In this document: piece after piece, positions 23,362-33,610 of the stretch
Layout: every line of letters begins with the position of its first letter
How positions within the stretch are numbered: position 1 is the first letter of the stretch
Source: Brevinema andersonii
GTDB lineage: Bacteria; Spirochaetota; Brevinematia; Brevinematales; Brevinemataceae
Length of the DNA stretch: 64,000 nt
Assembly (NCBI RefSeq): GCF_900112165.1
Contig: NZ_FOKY01000001.1
Span: forward strand, 62,001-126,000
Direction of reading: 5' to 3'
Notes under the pieces: generated by a model
Seen by the model: only the letters and a program-made list of their open reading frames with translations
Told to the model about the DNA's origin: nothing
The model's database searches: none
Translations under genes and position numbers: made by a program

Positions 23362-26300
23362 TTAAAAATCGATATAATCGGCAATCTGATCTTTGGAAAT
23401 AAGCACCTGCCAGCCTTTGCCGGCACTAACAGGCGGCATAACAATATTAAGATCCTTCATAGTTTCGATAAGACGCGATGCCCTATTATAACCCACTCTA
23501 AAACGCCTTTGGATAGCAGATGCAGAAATTTCACCGCTATCAACCGCATAACGTAATACTTCTGCAAACAAAGGATCAGTTAATGCATCAGTTTTAGACC
23601 CATCTTGGATACTGTCTTTATTAGCAGAAAGTAATTCTTCAAAATCAATCGCATAATTAGGAGGTCCATTCTTTTTGACAGCACTTACAACCGTTTCAAC
23701 ATCATGCCCAGACACATAAGGCGACTGAATGCGCACAGTATCCATATGCTCAGGTGACATAAACAGCATATCGCCACGACCTAACAATGCTTCCGCACCA
23801 TTTTTATCAAGAATTGTACGCGAATCTATCTTTGAACTCACACGAAACGCAACTCTGCACGGAAAATTCGCTTTTATGACACCTGTAACAACATCCACCG
23901 ACGGCCGCTGCGTCGCAACTACTAAATGCATACCCACAGCCCGTGCCATTGCTGCAAGACGTGAAATATTTTTCTCTGTATCCTTAGGTGAACGAAGCAT
24001 TAAATTAGCAAATTCGTCGATAATAATAACAATATAAGGAAGCTTTTCATAACCAGATTCTTCAGCGCCGAACAGAGAACTTTCTACCAAACTTTGATAT
24101 TCTTTAATATTACGCACACCGTTTTCCGACAAAATTTTATACCGTCGGTCCATTTCATTAACAGCCCATTCTAGAGATGCCATCGCCTCTTCGGGCTTGG
24201 TAATAATTGGTGCCAAAAGATGAGGAATGCCGTTATAAAGCTCTAACTCAACCATTTTGGGATCAATCATGATAAATTTTAGATCATCGGCTGACAGCTT
24301 GAACAACAGTCCCATAATCAGCGCATTAATATAAACACTCTTACCACTTCCGGTAGTACCTGCAACCAATAAATGTGGTGTTGTTGCAAGGTCACTGACT
24401 AACACTTTACCACCTATATCGGTACCTAAAATCAAGGGAAGAGCAGCATCGGACTGCTGAAATTCTGAACTTTCAATAAACTGACGCAGCAAAAATTGTC
24501 TTCTGATTTTATTCGGAACTTCAATTCCTATATAACTTCTACCTTCTACGGGACTGATAATTCGAATATTTGATGTACCAGCTTGCAATGCCAGATCATC
24601 CTGTAAATTGCGGATCGTACGGAGTTTCAACCCGGGAGGAGGTTCCAATTCAAATCTCGTAATAGCAGGACCACGACTATAATCGACTACTTTCATACGG
24701 ATATTAAAACTTTCAAAAGTATCTTCAATCATGCGGATCGTTTCCTCAATCTCATCGTCTTCAAGTTCGTGAAAAACAATTTCTAAATTAGGATCTAAAT
24801 CCTCAACTTTAGGAAAGACAATTTCTATTGGCTTGCCCAGTGAATGATCCACAGGATATTCATCTGTAGCTACCAAATAACTTTGAGTAGTAAATCTAGG
24901 TAAAAGTGCCGCTTCATTTTGGTCTAAATCTGATATTTCCGGAATCAAATTAGGAATTTCCTCAACCATCAGGGGGGAATCAGCAGAAACAATAGATTCT
25001 TTTTCTTCATCAATATTGAATTTTTCTTCAAGAGAACCTATTTCAACAGATTCTATAACAATAGGCACTATCTCTGATTCATGCAGATCTACATTTTCCC
25101 ACGGAGATACATGTTTTTCTTTAGAAAATTCATGAGCAACATCCTCTTCTTGGTCTTCTATCGACGATTGTATATCATCAAATAAAATTTCTTCATAAGC
25201 AGCTTCATCTTCCGATTCAGTTATATTATCAGCTTCATTGATTTCGATAGGATCATCTTCTAACTCTTGGATTATGTTTTGATCAATATCATCTACTGTT
25301 CTGTCAGCATCTTCAGAAATATCTGTATCCATATTATCTATTAGTTCGTTTTCAAATTCCAAAGCTACAGGAGCTGTAGGTTCATAAGTAAAAACTTTCT
25401 CCCAATCTCTGGGTGGAGCGCTTGCCGGCAAATCTAAATCCTCATCTTCGAAGGATGATACCGTATTTTCAATGCCTTCTTCAAAATCTGCAGTTTCTTC
25501 TTCAGTCTCAATAATATCCTCTTCTTTTATTTCTATTTCCTCAGTATCAACAGTATCCGCTATCTCATCAAGTGTTGGCATGTCGTCAGAAGGCTCTGGC
25601 ATTATCATTTCATCAAGAAGATCTTTACTAATTTGCACATTTTCAATAGGCTCAGGAACAGTGGTTTCGTTATCGGCAGGAGCATCATCAAACTCTTGAT
25701 GTGTAAAATTATATTCCGGAATAGAAATAGGAATTTTATCCTGTTCAAGAAAGAAATCATCAAATACAGAAATCGGTATTTCTTGTACTTCAGACTCAGA
25801 AACAGATATTTTATCGTTTCCTTTCAACAAACGAATTTCATCTCCTAACTCTTCTACTGCATCATCGTCGAAAATAGAAAAGTTGACATTTGGTTTATGC
25901 GTTAGCTGTTCATCAATTTGTTCGGTCAACATATCAAAAATAACCTCACCTTGAATAGGTTGTTGGCTGTGATACAATTCCGCTAATTCCTGCTGTTTCT
26001 TGTGCAGTTTTTCGCGAAGTTCTTGCTGATGCTGGAATTTTGCTCGCAATTCCGATTCCAATTGAGAAATTAAATTCTTCTCCTGTTCATCCAGCATGTA
26101 TAATTGATGATATTGATCCGCTAATTCTTGTTGTTTACGACGGATTTTCTCTTGAAATGCATTTTTCTGTTGTATTTTCTGTTGGTTTCTATGATCCAAA
26201 TTATTAATCAATTGAGTTTCTGCTTCTGTTAATTCTCGTGATTCACCAGCATTTGAATGGAAAATATCTTGATCTGGAGATTCAAAAATTTCCGGCAGAA

Positions 26301-27579
26301 TTAAACGATAAGGATCAGCAATTTCTTCCGTAGAAGAGTAATTTTGACTAAATTTTTCGCCCTTATAAAAACCATATTCATCTAACAATATTTCTTTTTG
26401 CGCAATCAACTTATCAAAAGCAACATCATTATCCGACAAACTTAATGTCTTCATATATTGCACATTGGAAATTAACACATCATTACATGCTTTTGCTGGT
26501 GTGTCCACAACATATAATTCATTATCAAGTTCTAATATTCTAGTCTCCGTGCGACGGATATCAGCTTCTTTATTTTTAAGATGCCGCTCCGATTCCTGTT
26601 CATACTCAACAGTGTCAATAAACCCTTTATCCAATGATAAACGAATAGTTTTATGTGCTGGCTTGACAAAATCTTCCGTACGATTATAATCATCTGGCAA
26701 TTGGGGCATATATTTTTGATGTTCTTCATTTCGTTCAACCGCAGGAATTCGAAACACTTTTACATTTTCCAGTTCATCTAAAGAATCAGGTGGCACCGTA
26801 TATTCTGTATGAATTTCCGGCATATCATCAAGTTCTAAGCGATTTTCTTCTAAAACATCGTAAAAAGGATTGGGCGGGTTTTTATAAGAGTCCGTCAAAT
26901 CAACATCAACATCTCGCAAAAAAGAGGGCTCTTCTGGGCGTGTAAGACGTTTTTTGTTAAGATAAAAAGTTTGATCTTCTTGATGATGCTCAATCGGCTC
27001 TTCAAAAATTTCTACTGGCTGCTTATCAACATAAATCCATTCTTCAGCTTTATCCCATTGTTTTTGTTGATGAGCAGCACGCCTGTATGTCATAAATTTT
27101 TTCCATAAAGTATGAGGAAACTTCCATAAAGCTATAACAGAAACAATTAGCATTATCCAAAAAAATGTCTGAAGTATAGTGTCGGGGAAAATTGACTTCA
27201 GTGCTTGGTATACCATAGCACCAAAAATTCCTCCCTTAAGATAAGATTCAGAACCATAAATACATGATAAACAAATCGCTGTTAATATAGATAAATATTG
27301 TGTAGAAAAAAAATAATTCAGTAAAGTTTTAGGAAAAATTCCAAAAATCAAACGCAAACCTATAATTAAAGAAAACAATACCCATAACCAAGATGCTTGC
27401 CCGTAAAATAGAATAAATGCTTCAGCAATTTGAGCACCAACAATACCCAACCAATTCATAGCATGAATGTTTGTAGATGAAGACAAACCAGCTACATCAT
27501 TGGGGGAAAATGTTGCTAACGCTATAGACAGAATTAAAGAAAAAATAATCAGTGAGTAAGAAATAATAGCCCTTATCAT
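23362..27579 (-). CDS. ftsK: DNA translocase FtsK with an unusually long acidic linker
   Basis: 1405 residues. About four membrane helices occupy 1-160. A long linker of roughly 750 residues is rich in Glu, Asp, Ile and Gln and includes a coiled-coil repeat (RKQQELADQYHQL and KKQQELAELYHSQ). The RecA-type motor follows (Walker A GTTGSGKS near 1070, Walker B IVIIIDEFANL near 1188) and a C-terminal winged-helix gamma domain (SASAIQRRFRVGYNRASRLIE). FtsK pumps DNA at the septum and activates Xer recombination at dif. The start overlaps the end of uppP by 4 bases. The motor is normal; only the linker is expanded. Confidence 0.95.
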   Translation of the reverse strand: MIRAIISYSLIIFSLILSIALATFSPNDVAGLSSSTNIHAMNWLGIVGAQIAEAFILFYGQASWLWVLFSLIIGLRLIFGIFPKTLLNYFFSTQYLSILTAICLSCIYGSESYLKGGIFGAMVYQALKSIFPDTILQTFFWIMLIVSVIALWKFPHTLWKKFMTYRRAAHQQKQWDKAEEWIYVDKQPVEIFEEPIEHHQEDQTFYLNKKRLTRPEEPSFLRDVDVDLTDSYKNPPNPFYDVLEENRLELDDMPEIHTEYTVPPDSLDELENVKVFRIPAVERNEEHQKYMPQLPDDYNRTEDFVKPAHKTIRLSLDKGFIDTVEYEQESERHLKNKEADIRRTETRILELDNELYVVDTPAKACNDVLISNVQYMKTLSLSDNDVAFDKLIAQKEILLDEYGFYKGEKFSQNYSSTEEIADPYRLILPEIFESPDQDIFHSNAGESRELTEAETQLINNLDHRNQQKIQQKNAFQEKIRRKQQELADQYHQLYMLDEQEKNLISQLESELRAKFQHQQELREKLHKKQQELAELYHSQQPIQGEVIFDMLTEQIDEQLTHKPNVNFSIFDDDAVEELGDEIRLLKGNDKISVSESEVQEIPISVFDDFFLEQDKIPISIPEYNFTHQEFDDAPADNETTVPEPIENVQISKDLLDEMIMPEPSDDMPTLDEIADTVDTEEIEIKEEDIIETEEETADFEEGIENTVSSFEDEDLDLPASAPPRDWEKVFTYEPTAPVALEFENELIDNMDTDISEDADRTVDDIDQNIIQELEDDPIEINEADNITESEDEAAYEEILFDDIQSSIEDQEEDVAHEFSKEKHVSPWENVDLHESEIVPIVIESVEIGSLEEKFNIDEEKESIVSADSPLMVEEIPNLIPEISDLDQNEAALLPRFTTQSYLVATDEYPVDHSLGKPIEIVFPKVEDLDPNLEIVFHELEDDEIEETIRMIEDTFESFNIRMKVVDYSRGPAITRFELEPPPGLKLRTIRNLQDDLALQAGTSNIRIISPVEGRSYIGIEVPNKIRRQFLLRQFIESSEFQQSDAALPLILGTDIGGKVLVSDLATTPHLLVAGTTGSGKSVYINALIMGLLFKLSADDLKFIMIDPKMVELELYNGIPHLLAPIITKPEEAMASLEWAVNEMDRRYKILSENGVRNIKEYQSLVESSLFGAEESGYEKLPYIVIIIDEFANLMLRSPKDTEKNISRLAAMARAVGMHLVVATQRPSVDVVTGVIKANFPCRVAFRVSSKIDSRTILDKNGAEALLGRGDMLFMSPEHMDTVRIQSPYVSGHDVETVVSAVKKNGPPNYAIDFEELLSANKDSIQDGSKTDALTDPLFAEVLRYAVDSGEISASAIQRRFRVGYNRASRLIETMKDLNIVMPPVSAGKGWQVLISKDQIADYIDF

Positions 27580-28414: not shown

Positions 28415-28443
28415 ATTATAGCTTATAAGAAAAAATATATCAA
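28415..28443 (-). promoter_or_regulatory. Promoter of the uppP-ftsK-dinG-ankyrin-dut-obg operon
   Basis: Minus strand: TTGATA (28443-28438), 17-base spacer, TATAAT (28420-28415), 30 bases before the uppP start. It lies back to back with the promoter at 28468-28496. Confidence 0.75.
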
Positions 28444-28467
28444 AAAATAGAGATATGGTACACAATT

Positions 28468-28496
28468 TTGAAATAAATAAAAATATAGTTTATAAT
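28468..28496 (+). promoter_or_regulatory. Promoter of the DUF2225-TPR-fusion operon
   Basis: TTGAAA at 28468-28473, 17-base spacer, TATAAT at 28491-28496. It lies downstream of the in-frame ATG at 28455, which shows that ATG is not used; the GTG at 28527 is. Confidence 0.75.
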
Positions 28497-28526
28497 AAAC
28501 TATACAGCATACTTAAGGAGTTTTCC

Positions 28527-29441
28527 GTGAACGAAAAAGTTCAACGCGTTACCTTTTTTTCAAAAAATCTCATTACTTGTCCTGCATGCGGTACAGAATT
28601 TCAACGCGAGGAACTACAAACCGGCAGAGGCCGTATCAACGCAGGCGACTTGACTGATGAACTGCGGCGTCTCTACATTCCGACTCAGAAATATGGTACA
28701 GTAAATCCTCTTATATATCCTATTGTTGTGTGTCCTGAGTGTTTTTTTGCGGGGTTGCCTAGTGATATGCAGAAAATGACAGAAGTTCAGATTTCCAAAA
28801 TCAACAAAGACAAAGGTAACCGCTTGAATCTGATTCGGAAAATTTTCGGGGAAACATTGAATTTTAGAGACTACCGTAATGTCATTACGGGATTAGGATC
28901 GTATATTCTGGCCTTTATGAATACAATTCACCTGCCTAAGGAATTTTCACCTACTGCACGGCGAGGGTTATATACGCTACGTGCGGCATGGCTTGCAGAC
29001 GATGTTTATAAAAAAACAAATTTAGACCATTTCAAAAAACTTCGACAAGAAATGTATCGTCAAGCGTTGATTAATTATGAAAATGCTTTAGAACGTCAAA
29101 TGAAAAATATTGAACCTTTTGACGGATTTGTCTGGATGGGTCCTGATGTAGATACCAATTTCGGTTATGATGGCATACTTTACATCACAGCTATTCTTAC
29201 ACTTAAAAATCTCGACCTCTTTATTAGTTGCGAAGAGCAAATCAACAAAATAGGTCGTGCAAAAATCGTATTGTCGAAAATTTTCGGAATAGGAAAATCA
29301 AATAAAGAAAAGCCAAAAGCCCTTGTTTCCCTATCAAAAAATCTCTATATGACCGCTAACAACATCCTGAAAAATTTTTCTGATCAAGGCATAGATATCA
29401 GTGCCGCAGAAACCGAAGAGGACCAGCATGAAAATATATAA
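28527..29441 (+). CDS. DUF2225 zinc-ribbon-like protein
   Basis: 304 residues from a GTG with AAGGAG 6 bases upstream. Two Cys pairs near the N-terminus (ITCPACGTEF and VVCPECFFAG) should bind zinc. The rest is mostly helical and TPR-like (YRQALINYENALERQ). The DUF2225 family is common in spirochaetes and Firmicutes and has no settled function. It is the first gene of a three-gene operon; its end overlaps the TPR gene by 14 bases. Confidence 0.8.
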   Translation: MNEKVQRVTFFSKNLITCPACGTEFQREELQTGRGRINAGDLTDELRRLYIPTQKYGTVNPLIYPIVVCPECFFAGLPSDMQKMTEVQISKINKDKGNRLNLIRKIFGETLNFRDYRNVITGLGSYILAFMNTIHLPKEFSPTARRGLYTLRAAWLADDVYKKTNLDHFKKLRQEMYRQALINYENALERQMKNIEPFDGFVWMGPDVDTNFGYDGILYITAILTLKNLDLFISCEEQINKIGRAKIVLSKIFGIGKSNKEKPKALVSLSKNLYMTANNILKNFSDQGIDISAAETEEDQHENI

Positions 29442-31341
29442 CAAAAGCTTAATATTGTTTTTCGTTATATTTTTAGTATCCTCACAAGTATCCAGTAATA
29501 CTCATCAAATAGAGCAGCAGATCAAAGAAGCTCTTGATATCGATAATTATGCTGTTGCTGAAACATTGCTAAAAGATTTATTAAAACTTAACCCAGAAAA
29601 TTCAACAGCATACCTCCTTTCAGCAGAGCTCTACTATAAAACTGGAAATTTCGAAGAAAGCATTTCTAACATTAACCGTGCTTTATATTATGCTCCTCAA
29701 AATGTTCAAAACTATATTCTTGCCGGCAATATTTATAGACAATCAGGAAAATATCAAGAAGCAGCAGATGCTTATAACAAGGCACTTGAAATAGATCCAG
29801 GAATAGCAGAAACATATTATGAATTTTCTTTGCTGAGATTCCAGGAATTAAAAATCATGGATGCACAGAGATTATTGAATCTATCAGAGAGTTTCAATCC
29901 GAAAGCATGGCAGAATAATATTTTAAAAGCTCGACTGGCACAGCATCAATCGAAAAGTAATCTAGCACAGCAGATTTTCTTAGAAACGATTGCCCAGTTT
30001 CCCCAAGAAGTTGGAATCTTACATGCACTTGCTGATTACTATATTGACGAAAAAAATTATGCCAAAGCTGTTGCTGTTTTGAAGGAAGCAAATACACGCT
30101 TTGGAAAGAGTGTTAAACGAGATATTCAAATTGCAGATTTATTATTTATTAAACAAAAATTTTCGGAAGCTTTAACATATTACCAAAATATCAAAAACGT
30201 TTTTAGTAACGTTGCATATCCAATTGCTGCATCTGTTAACTGGAATTTGTATAAGCTGTATCTGATACAAAATGATTCAAATAATGCAGAAATCAGTTTA
30301 AAAACAGCATTTGAGCTTTCGCCAGGAAATCAAATGTATCATTCGATATATGCCTTTTTCCTAGCAAAAAAATACCCTCCTAGTCATGAAAACAGAATTT
30401 CTCTAACAAAATACTTCGAGCAGACTGCAAAAAAAAATAAGAAAAAGGGATTAAGCAGCTATTATTTGACATTGCTAAAAACCATTATTCTGCTTGATCC
30501 GTTCAATGATCAGGCTTATCATGAACTTTTAGAATTTGCCAAGATAAAAAAAAATGAATTCCAAGTGACAGATATTTTAAAACAAATAGCAAAATATTCT
30601 ACAAACAAAAAAGCGATTACTACGCTTGAAATACGGGATCGATGGGCAAAAACAGGTCGTCTTAATCAGAAAGAACATAAATTATATCAATATAAAATAT
30701 TATTTTTTATTGACGAAAATCAAGAATATTATGCACAACACTTCTCTGATATACTAGAATTTCTAAACCCTATGTTCCCAAAATTTGAGTTGCAAACTAA
30801 AATAAATAAAAATTTTGCTTTAGAAAGCCGCTCATTTTTCAGAACTAATACTAATAATGGCTTAATTATTCACTTATCAAACGATAAGGATAACCATATT
30901 AAAGCATTATTTTTTGATAAAAAAGGGTTGTTAGTTAAGAATAGAGAATTTAATTATCATTCGTCGTCATTCACTGAGAACGCACTTCAACTCTTAAAAG
31001 CCGTTTCACAATATTTAGTACCTATTGCTTATATCGAAAAAAGATTACCCGATTCGTCCTTCGAAACAGATCTAGGCAGCAGTTACGGTATAACAAATAA
31101 TCAATTATTATCCGTTTTTGATGAAAATTTTCAGTTAATTACCGAATTGACAGTCTTAGAAACACAACTTTATTCATCCAAAGCTCGGTTAAACAGCACC
31201 CCAGCTAATTTGGATTCTGCTGAGATATTGTATACAACTCCCAAGTATTTGGACAAAGAATTTTACATAGATCCCGTACGGTTGTTCATTGGAGAATACA
31301 ACGATACTTTCCCCCTCAATCCCACACCAAAATACAATTAA
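29428..31341 (+). CDS. Secreted TPR-repeat protein
   Basis: 637 residues starting at the ATG at 29428 behind AGAGGA. A signal peptide (about 1-22, ending SSQVSS) is followed by at least five TPR units in the first 280 residues (for example TAYLLSAELYYKTGNFEESISNINRALYYAP and AEAYNKALEIDPG-like units). The last 250 residues are not TPR and have no recognised family. It is likely a periplasmic or outer-membrane scaffold. It lies between DUF2225 and the ATP-grasp/FMN fusion gene, 10 bases before the latter. Confidence 0.7.
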   Translation: MKIYNKSLILFFVIFLVSSQVSSNTHQIEQQIKEALDIDNYAVAETLLKDLLKLNPENSTAYLLSAELYYKTGNFEESISNINRALYYAPQNVQNYILAGNIYRQSGKYQEAADAYNKALEIDPGIAETYYEFSLLRFQELKIMDAQRLLNLSESFNPKAWQNNILKARLAQHQSKSNLAQQIFLETIAQFPQEVGILHALADYYIDEKNYAKAVAVLKEANTRFGKSVKRDIQIADLLFIKQKFSEALTYYQNIKNVFSNVAYPIAASVNWNLYKLYLIQNDSNNAEISLKTAFELSPGNQMYHSIYAFFLAKKYPPSHENRISLTKYFEQTAKKNKKKGLSSYYLTLLKTIILLDPFNDQAYHELLEFAKIKKNEFQVTDILKQIAKYSTNKKAITTLEIRDRWAKTGRLNQKEHKLYQYKILFFIDENQEYYAQHFSDILEFLNPMFPKFELQTKINKNFALESRSFFRTNTNNGLIIHLSNDKDNHIKALFFDKKGLLVKNREFNYHSSSFTENALQLLKAVSQYLVPIAYIEKRLPDSSFETDLGSSYGITNNQLLSVFDENFQLITELTVLETQLYSSKARLNSTPANLDSAEILYTTPKYLDKEFYIDPVRLFIGEYNDTFPLNPTPKYN

Positions 31342-31351
31342 GAAGGCTATT

Positions 31352-33610
31352 ATGAAACGAGAAAATAAAAAAATCCTTATTGTGGGGGCAGGTGAATTAC
31401 AGGTTCCATTAATACAAGCCGCTAAAGAACTTGGACTTTTTGTTGTTGCTAGCGATCAGAATCCTGATGCTCCCGGTTTTGCTTATGCTGATGCAAAAAT
31501 TATTGCTGATACTATGAATCCTCAAGAAAGTTTGGAAAAAATTATTTCATTTACGGCGCAAAACGGACCTATTCATGGAGTAGCAACAGCAGGAACAGAC
31601 GCATCATTAGCAGTTGCAACAATTGCTCATCATTTTCATCTTCCAGGTCATAGTATTGAAGCAGCACACAGAGCTAGCAATAAAAAACTAATGCGTGAAG
31701 CCTTAGCATCGGCAGGGGTCTCAATTCCAAAATTTCAAATTTTCTCCACACTTAATGAATTAAATCGCTTTTTTAAAGAATTTAATAGCCCTTGTGTTGT
31801 TAAACCTATCAATAATATGGGAGCAAGAGGAACATCTTTAGTGAGAAAAGAAGACGAACTCGAAGCTGCTTTTCAGTTAGTGCAAAAATACTCTTCTTCC
31901 AATGAATATCTTATAGAAGAATATATCGATGCTCCGGAACTTAGTATTGACTCTCTAGTCTTTAATCATACTGTAACAATCACAGGAATTGCGGATCGAA
32001 TTATTGAATATGCACCATATTTTGTAGAAACAGGTCATATTCTGCCGTCAAATCTGCCACAAGAATGGATTGACAGAGCATTAATTACGTTCCGAGATGC
32101 TATCAAAGCATTAGGATTAAAACACGGAGCAGCCAAAATAGATATAAAAGTTTCTAATGAAAGGACTTGGGTTATTGAAATAGCTGCACGTTTATCTGGC
32201 GGATATATGTCTTCACATACATTTCCGGCAGCTACTGGCATTCCGTTACACCGCTATATGGTGATGCTAGCGATGGGCGAACAACTTACATCATTCGGAC
32301 CGACAAAAAATTTAGTCAGTATCGAACGCGCAATCATCGCCCCACCCGGAAAAATTATCGGCATTTCTGTCCCAGAAAACATTTCACAGCGAGAATTTAT
32401 CACACACTTTTCGATGCGTGCTAATCCCGGTGATATTTCCGTTTCACCCAAAAATAATTTAGACAAAGCAGGCAGTATCATTGCGACAGCTCCAAGTCGA
32501 TTACAAGCAATTCATGCAGTGAATAAAGCCATTAAGAGTATAAAATTTACAATAGAACCTGAATACGACTTGCATACATATATTAAAGAATCCGAAGACA
32601 AAGCACGCATGCTCTTGAAAGGCACATGTAATGTATGCAGAACATGTGATGGACTTTGGTGCCGTGGGCAGATCCCAGGAGTGGGTGGCGTCGGCACAGG
32701 AGAAGGATTCATACAAAGCTACCAACGTTACCGAGAACTTAAATTAGTGCCTACTTACATTCACAACGTCAGAAATGTAGACACATCGATAGAAATGTTC
32801 GGACAAAAACACTCTATGCCAGTATTCACAGCTCCTATTGGAGGGGTCTATATCAATTATAACAATGCCTCTACGGAGTTAGAATTTCAAAGGGCACTCA
32901 TCAAAGGAGCTTATCAAGCAGGTACTATGGGATTCATTGCTGATCCTGCACCATTAAATGTTTTTTCGGTATGTGCGCAGGCTATTTTAGAAAATTTTGG
33001 GCATTCTATTCCAATATGCAAACCGCGTACTGATTCAAACCTCATCAGAGAGAGATTTACAGCAGCTTTGGAAGCGGGAGCTTTAGGGATTGGCACGGAT
33101 ATCGATGGTATAGGATTAAAAACATTCATTCTTGCCGGACAAGGCACATGTCCTAAAACTATTGATGAATTAAGAGAAATTTCTCGAGGATATAAGGTTC
33201 CTTTTGTCATCAAAGGAATTTTATCTGTTCATGATGCCTTATCTGCTATTGACGCTGGAGCAACACATATCATTGTGTCTTCACACGGAGGCAGAATCAA
33301 CGAAGCATTTCCGTGTCCTATAGATGTTCTGCCTGCGATAAAAAAAGCTGTTGGAAACCGTGCTGGTATTCTCATAGACGGAGCAATTAGATCTGGTGCT
33401 GATGTCGTAAAAGCATTAATTTTAGGTGCTGATGCTGTTCTGATAGGACGTCCAGCAGCTTATCTTGCTATAGGAAATAATGCCCAAGGTGTTCGATCCT
33501 ATCTTCTTAGTATAAAAAAACAAATCGAAACAACTATGTTATTAATAAACGCATCATCAATACAGGATCTTAAAGATAACCCGAAATTGCTTATAGATAT
33601 GAAAAACTGA
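31352..33610 (+). CDS. Fused ATP-grasp ligase and FMN-dependent alpha-hydroxy-acid dehydrogenase-type protein
   Basis: 752 residues from the ATG at 31352 (AGAAGG 5 bases upstream). Residues 1-410 form a PurK/carbamoyl-phosphate-synthase-like ATP-grasp enzyme: an N-terminal Rossmann-like start (ILIVGAGELQVPLIQAAKELG), VVKPINNMGARGTSL near 148, and the metal-site region TWVIEIAARLSGG. Residues 420-752 form an FMN TIM barrel of the lactate-oxidase type: a Cys cluster CNVCRTCDGLWC near 425, FVIKG near 616 (FMN Lys), SSHGGR near 643 (His/Arg of the active site) and ILIDGAIRSGADVVKAL near 673. Such FMN proteins exist singly in anaerobes and spirochaetes; joining one to a ligase suggests two consecutive reactions on an amino or hydroxy acid. 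The substrate is unknown. Confidence 0.85.
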   Translation: MKRENKKILIVGAGELQVPLIQAAKELGLFVVASDQNPDAPGFAYADAKIIADTMNPQESLEKIISFTAQNGPIHGVATAGTDASLAVATIAHHFHLPGHSIEAAHRASNKKLMREALASAGVSIPKFQIFSTLNELNRFFKEFNSPCVVKPINNMGARGTSLVRKEDELEAAFQLVQKYSSSNEYLIEEYIDAPELSIDSLVFNHTVTITGIADRIIEYAPYFVETGHILPSNLPQEWIDRALITFRDAIKALGLKHGAAKIDIKVSNERTWVIEIAARLSGGYMSSHTFPAATGIPLHRYMVMLAMGEQLTSFGPTKNLVSIERAIIAPPGKIIGISVPENISQREFITHFSMRANPGDISVSPKNNLDKAGSIIATAPSRLQAIHAVNKAIKSIKFTIEPEYDLHTYIKESEDKARMLLKGTCNVCRTCDGLWCRGQIPGVGGVGTGEGFIQSYQRYRELKLVPTYIHNVRNVDTSIEMFGQKHSMPVFTAPIGGVYINYNNASTELEFQRALIKGAYQAGTMGFIADPAPLNVFSVCAQAILENFGHSIPICKPRTDSNLIRERFTAALEAGALGIGTDIDGIGLKTFILAGQGTCPKTIDELREISRGYKVPFVIKGILSVHDALSAIDAGATHIIVSSHGGRINEAFPCPIDVLPAIKKAVGNRAGILIDGAIRSGADVVKALILGADAVLIGRPAAYLAIGNNAQGVRSYLLSIKKQIETTMLLINASSIQDLKDNPKLLIDMKN

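Follow-up and report, generated by a model that had tools for sequence, protein, structure and literature searches.

A conserved ATP-grasp/FMN fusion protein of spirochaetes as a possible two-step enzyme

The window analyzed here is a stretch of 64,000 nucleotides of Brevinema andersonii DNA. At 31352..33610 on its + strand lies a stop-free frame whose translation is a 752-aa protein in which an ATP-grasp ligase is fused to an FMN alpha-hydroxy-acid-dehydrogenase-type protein, as indicated by the open frame, Pfam domains, homologues and a structural model. The opposite strand contains stops throughout this interval. A ribosome-binding-like sequence, AAGAAGG, is found immediately 5′ of the start codon at 31352; the internal ATG at 32610, with which the flavin half would start, has no such site in front of it. 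Pfam, Foldseek and residue comparisons assigned aa 1-402 (31352..32557, +) to an ATP-grasp carboxylate-amine ligase carrying the L-amino-acid-ligase C-terminal domain 2, while Pfam, the model and Foldseek assigned approximately aa 414-752 (32591..33607, +) to an FMN-binding TIM barrel of the alpha-hydroxy-acid oxidase/dehydrogenase family. The flavin half begins with a motif of four invariant cysteines, CNVCRTCDGLWC (Cys4; C426-x2-C429-x2-C432-x4-C437, aa 426-437, 32627..32662, +). The full-length fusion was modeled by AlphaFold with a pLDDT of 91.7 and a pTM of 0.86, and the gene is present in a single copy in the 1.5-Mb genome.

An earlier note on this DNA had proposed that two complete enzyme halves are joined in one chain, with a cysteine cluster at the junction. 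The single chain was borne out by the stop-free frame together with full-length homologues across the phylum and beyond; the conservation of the fusion architecture in these homologues rules out a missed stop, a frameshift or a sequencing artefact. When the domains of both halves were searched for, ATP-grasp_4, LAL_C2 and FMN_dh all scored over their Pfam cut-offs, and each half is complete, with its catalytic residues conserved. The cysteine cluster does exist, but it belongs to the flavin half and also occurs in stand-alone relatives, and is therefore not a feature of the junction.

We found that the fusion is widespread. The nearest relatives within the Brevinemataceae are 60-61% identical over their full length, the nearest named one being an uncultured Brevinema (L099, 60%). 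All 60 relatives searched gave a match, those from other families of the order being 43-45% identical, again over the full length. Some part of the fusion was matched in 243 of 296 Spirochaetota genomes, and at least about 105 of these genomes matched nearly its full length with E < 1e-139; additional, more divergent full-length homologues in Spirochaetota genomes fell on the weaker side of that value. An initial scan of genome contigs with a single protein as query gave no match. Searching named genomes with an alignment as query retrieved full-length relatives from Spirochaetota, Nitrospinota (Nitrospina), Coatesbacteria and a few others. Most spirochaete lineages, plus some other bacteria, carry the fusion. 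Both halves are absent from a Borrelia-like family (f36) and from families f44 and f49, which provide a natural negative control.

The genes surrounding the fusion were considered as a possible guide to its function. A DUF2225 protein (28455..29441, +; PF09986, 121.5 bits) is the first gene of a probable transcription unit, followed by a TPR protein (29401..31341, +; matching TPR families), whose real start is probably the ATG at 29428. There is no terminator-like site in the spacer between the TPR gene and the fusion. Both genes keep their places in two other Brevinemataceae, L127 and L099, where the TPR proteins are 34-36% identical to that of the window. The order DUF2225-TPR-fusion, followed by SurE, CorC and DnaN on the other strand, was kept in all three Brevinemataceae examined, and in some Brevinematales DUF2225-TPR lies a few genes upstream of the fusion. 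Elsewhere the operon-like neighbors are unrelated housekeeping genes, among them mnmA, mnmE, glpX, lexA and holo-ACP synthase, and among the neighbors of 51 loci no family occurred at more than three loci, with the exception of a CitE-like aldolase. The partnership with DUF2225 and TPR proteins, which the earlier note had pointed out, therefore does not reveal function.

Two neighborhood candidates were rejected. A CitE-like HpcH/HpaI aldolase lies directly beside the fusion at seven loci (including L102:8254-9048), mostly in Nitrospina, where an ATP-citrate-lyase-like gene follows it; this occurrence is too narrow to serve as a pathway clue. A link to tRNA modification, raised by the mnmA and mnmE neighbors and by a U32 peptidase near a clostridial gene, was dropped as lineage-specific. 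Within the window, strong promoter-like sites (11/12) were seen on both strands at 28415-28533, between an uppP-like gene and DUF2225. As the + strand site lies within the first codons of the DUF2225 frame, which is 328 aa long as against 302 aa in relatives, the true start of this gene is probably further downstream. The window also encodes an FtsK/SpoIIIE-type protein of 1405 aa (23362-27579, -) with a long acidic, repeat-poor middle, which is only about 28% identical to its counterpart in close relatives.

The ligase half matched ATP-grasp_4 with 66 bits (Pfam cut-off 27), and its C-terminal domain matched LAL_C2 (PF18603) with 44.1 bits (cut-off 29.4). K111, R115, K151, E189, E196, E226, H229, K262, D264, E276 and R280 are conserved throughout the fusions, the ATP-grasp residues being invariant or nearly so in 50 aligned fusions, and the 18 ligase positions that we checked show essentially no change in any fusion or split ligase other than the fusion of family f21, described below. 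In structure comparisons with Foldseek, the best PDB match in both sequence and fold was 4dim (TMt 0.79), an Anaerococcus prevotii protein; the L-amino acid ligase 3vot gave a TMt of 0.84-0.85, BacD and RizA were also among the best matches, and the folds of PurT and biotin carboxylase matched likewise. The ATP-grasp residues and the LAL_C2 domain indicate a protein of the L-amino-acid-ligase type, for which amide formation is predicted. We observed that the best plasmid homologue of the ligase sits in a pseudaminic-acid cluster. A role in flagellin-glycan biosynthesis, which this homologue would suggest, was rejected, as it does not fit the clostridial flavin half and the Nitrospinota fusions.

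The flavin half matched FMN_dh (PF01070) with 190.8 bits (cut-off 24.9) and was modeled separately with a pLDDT of 92.8 and a pTM of 0.93. Mandelate, lactate and glycolate oxidases ranked first in the fold search, with TM values of about 0.72-0.82 for 4-hydroxymandelate oxidase, HAO1 and glycolate oxidase. In a profile alignment, K621, H645 and R648 correspond to the KGI and HGGR motifs of mammalian hydroxyacid oxidase. Among the 50 aligned fusions, K621, R648 and the residues of the FMN phosphate site are invariant and H645 is nearly so, and the set formed by Cys4, K557, D583, D585, K621 and HGGR is intact in nearly all members of our residue table. These features predict an FMN enzyme of the hydroxyacid oxidase/dehydrogenase family that would oxidize an alpha-hydroxy acid. 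Judged by these residues, both active sites of the window protein are intact, and Cys4 is conserved. Fusions at four loci (L109, L111, L091 and L223) keep Cys4 and have Arg or Lys in place of the catalytic His, those at L109 and L111 additionally lacking the equivalents of D583 and K557; in such lineages the reaction may sometimes differ from hydride abstraction.

C426, C429, C432 and C437 are invariant in the 50 aligned fusions and in every intact stand-alone relative examined, and the motif is missing only where the flavin half is degenerate. The profile alignment places the Cys4-PGxGG stretch at the active-site arm of hydroxyacid oxidases. The Tyr of this arm (Tyr24 of spinach glycolate oxidase) was not found, the extended alignment placing the Pro-Gly of Cys4-PGxGG at this position, and the arm region of the 50 fusions lacks any conserved Tyr. 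Sequence and fold searches retrieved no solved structure for either the fusion or a Cys4-type flavin half, and the motif was not seen in any aligned PDB relative. Cys4 is a probable metal site, with Fe-S as the favored reading.

Lineages in which one half has decayed provided further information on how the halves are related. In family f14, the ligase half of the fusion is perfect and the flavin half has lost all four cysteines, HGGR and most of the FMN-site residues; by this residue loss, the flavin halves at L121:4998-7142, L119:4071-6218, L125:4050-6218 and L224 are catalytically dead. The dN values of the flavin and ligase halves were 0.378 vs. 0.133, 0.268 vs. 0.072 and 0.548 vs. 0.169, such that the flavin half evolves about three times as fast as the ligase half, whereas in normal fusions the two rates are equal. 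The dead half retains some constraint. A third genus of this family (G143) is in a halfway state, with Cys4 kept and the His changed to Lys. Genomes of the main genus (g17) encode a separate, intact flavin protein that groups with a clostridial protein with 100/100 support, and which probably represents a replacement acquired by horizontal transfer; no intact flavin protein was found in genus g41. The opposite situation was observed in family f21, where the ATP-grasp half of the fusion is ruined (L118:4998-7157, L226 and L228, by residue loss), the Cys4 flavin half is intact, and all three genomes encode a separate intact ATP-grasp ligase. Here the dead half evolves no faster than the live flavin half and is still constrained, which argues that it was probably repurposed, with a structural role kept, rather than simply lost.

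In treponeme-type genomes the two halves are encoded by separate genes at distant loci, and one such genome of only 1.14 Mb (G068) retains both. The split flavin protein has about 300 aa, and the split ATP-grasp proteins (L113:5590-7263, L116:5938-7602, L175:5034-6791 and others) have an extra tail of roughly 100-150 residues that gave no Pfam match in the three scanned. This tail ends in a recurring RGGxQGxxYxxD motif, and a DUF34/NIF3 gene adjoins the split ATP-grasp gene in L113 and L115. The apparent split pair of family f43 (G146) was not accepted as such: both pieces end at contig edges, and they probably derive from an intact fusion cut by the assembly. Taken together, the halves have been separated, replaced and silenced one at a time during evolution.

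We assessed the co-occurrence of the halves in 30 hand-picked genomes outside the main fusion lineages. The Cys4 flavin half was present in nine of them (counting that of family f43), every one of which has an intact ligase; 15 have the ligase alone and six have neither half. The ligase thus accompanies 9/9 flavin-positive vs. 15/21 flavin-negative genomes, an association that in a sample this small is suggestive and by itself falls short of proof. A sensitive profile search of the flavin-negative genomes gave only weak partial matches, as expected from other flavin or IMP-dehydrogenase-like barrels. However, one clostridial genome encodes the flavin protein and no orthologous ligase, its nearest ATP-grasp protein being 27-28% identical and differing at several key positions. 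The flavin activity can therefore exist without this ligase, which is the chief objection to regarding the pair as strictly obligate. The readier loss of the flavin half points to the ligase as the core step, with the flavin step as an accessory.

The reading that we prefer, to which we assign a probability of roughly 0.5, is that the fusion is a bifunctional enzyme whose two reactions belong to a single small-molecule pathway. The N-terminal half would use ATP-Mg to activate a carboxylate as an acyl phosphate and join it to an amine, as L-amino acid ligases do; its fold and residues are consistent with this. The C-terminal half, with FMN bound, would abstract a hydride, at the K621/H645/R648 site, from the alpha-carbon of a group of the hydroxy- or amino-acid type, and Cys4, located beside the active-site arm and probably binding a [4Fe-4S] cluster, would pass the electrons on instead of O2. 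From the distribution of the halves, the flavin step may act on the product of the ligase or feed one of its substrates. A point against this reading is that no metabolic gene recurs near the fusion from which the pathway could be named. A two-step pathway had been put forward in the earlier note and is supported by the one-sided decay and replacement of the halves. The order suggested there, oxidation followed by ligation, is not what the distribution favors, and the idea of metabolite repair found no support.

Alternatively, the halves may catalyze unrelated reactions and have been joined by chance or for co-expression. The distant loci of the treponeme genes, the many genomes with a ligase and no flavin half, and the Clostridia with a flavin half and no orthologous ligase would all be compatible with this. 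We nevertheless consider it unlikely, since the fusion persists with both sites intact across the phylum and in other phyla, the death of one half usually leaves an intact partner elsewhere in the genome, and every flavin half in the spirochaete sample is accompanied by an intact ligase. It is quite improbable that the ATP-grasp half has another activity of this superfamily, such as carboxylation or a nucleotide-sugar/purine-type reaction, rather than that of an amide ligase. While its best match is deposited as a phosphoribosylglycinamide synthetase and the PurT and biotin carboxylase folds resemble it, LAL_C2 exceeds its cut-off, the best matches in fold include three L-amino acid ligases, and the annotated plasmid homologues that come nearest outside the family are ATP-grasp proteins in sugar/capsule clusters.

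Other alternatives concern the flavin half. Four cysteines within 12 residues can bind zinc, and the barrel at the core most resembles oxidases that use oxygen; it is thus possible, though we regard it as doubtful, that Cys4 is structural zinc or redox disulfides in an ordinary O2-using hydroxyacid oxidase. The position of the motif at the active-site arm and its retention even where the catalytic His is lost argue against zinc or disulfides, and there are stand-alone relatives in Clostridia, in which one would hardly expect an oxidase that depends on O2. A non-oxidative or reductive enzyme, isomerase- or reductase-like, could be proposed from a weak match to type 2 isopentenyl-diphosphate isomerase, the absence of the His base in some lineages and the lack of a conserved Tyr in the arm region. 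This appears very improbable given that nearly every member keeps the Lys and HGGR characteristic of the oxidase family and that oxidases lead the fold search.

Both halves are members of known superfamilies. The L-amino acid ligases BL00235 (3vot), BacD/YwfE (3vmm, 3wnz) and RizA (4wd3) share the ATP-grasp fold, the ATP-binding residues and LAL_C2 with the N-terminal half, but are only about 20% identical to it, and their PDB representatives are dipeptide ligases that stand alone. 4dim, also stand-alone, is about 24% identical and is annotated as a phosphoribosylglycinamide synthetase; we know of no activity that backs this name. 4-hydroxymandelate oxidase (6a3t), HAO1, glycolate oxidase (1gox) and lactate oxidase have in common with the flavin half the TIM barrel, the FMN phosphate site (DGG-R-G-D...GRP) and K621/H645/R648; they differ in that Cys4-PGxGG replaces their active-site arm and in that they are not fused to ligases. 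The stand-alone "alpha-hydroxy-acid oxidizing protein" of Clostridia (Acetoanaerobium, Vescimonas) has the same Cys4 and catalytic set at 35-40% identity and is encoded by a separate gene with no orthologous ligase adjoining. The best NCBIfam match of the flavin half was the pre-mycofactocin synthase MftD, an FMN enzyme of the same family, at 131 bits, far below the family cut-off of 471, and no mycofactocin genes were seen near the fusion. MftD oxidizes an alpha-amino amide product and offers an earlier example of a flavin step that follows the formation of an amide. In the open-licence literature we found no paper describing the fusion, the Cys4 flavin form or the reciprocal decay.

In a survey of genomes, the two halves would be listed under the generic names "ATP-grasp" and "alpha-hydroxy-acid oxidizing" protein. 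They are linked by the conservation of the fusion, by the Cys4 variant of the flavin half and by reciprocal losses, which makes a spirochaete pathway accessible to testing, including the split pair of a very small treponeme-type genome. Tentatively, and with clearly less than even confidence, we suggest that spirochaetes may have an ancient pathway of two steps, kept even by the 1.14-Mb genome, in which an O2-free Cys4 Fe-S/FMN oxidase variant would either oxidize the amide made by the ligase or supply its acid partner, leading to an undescribed metabolite or cofactor.
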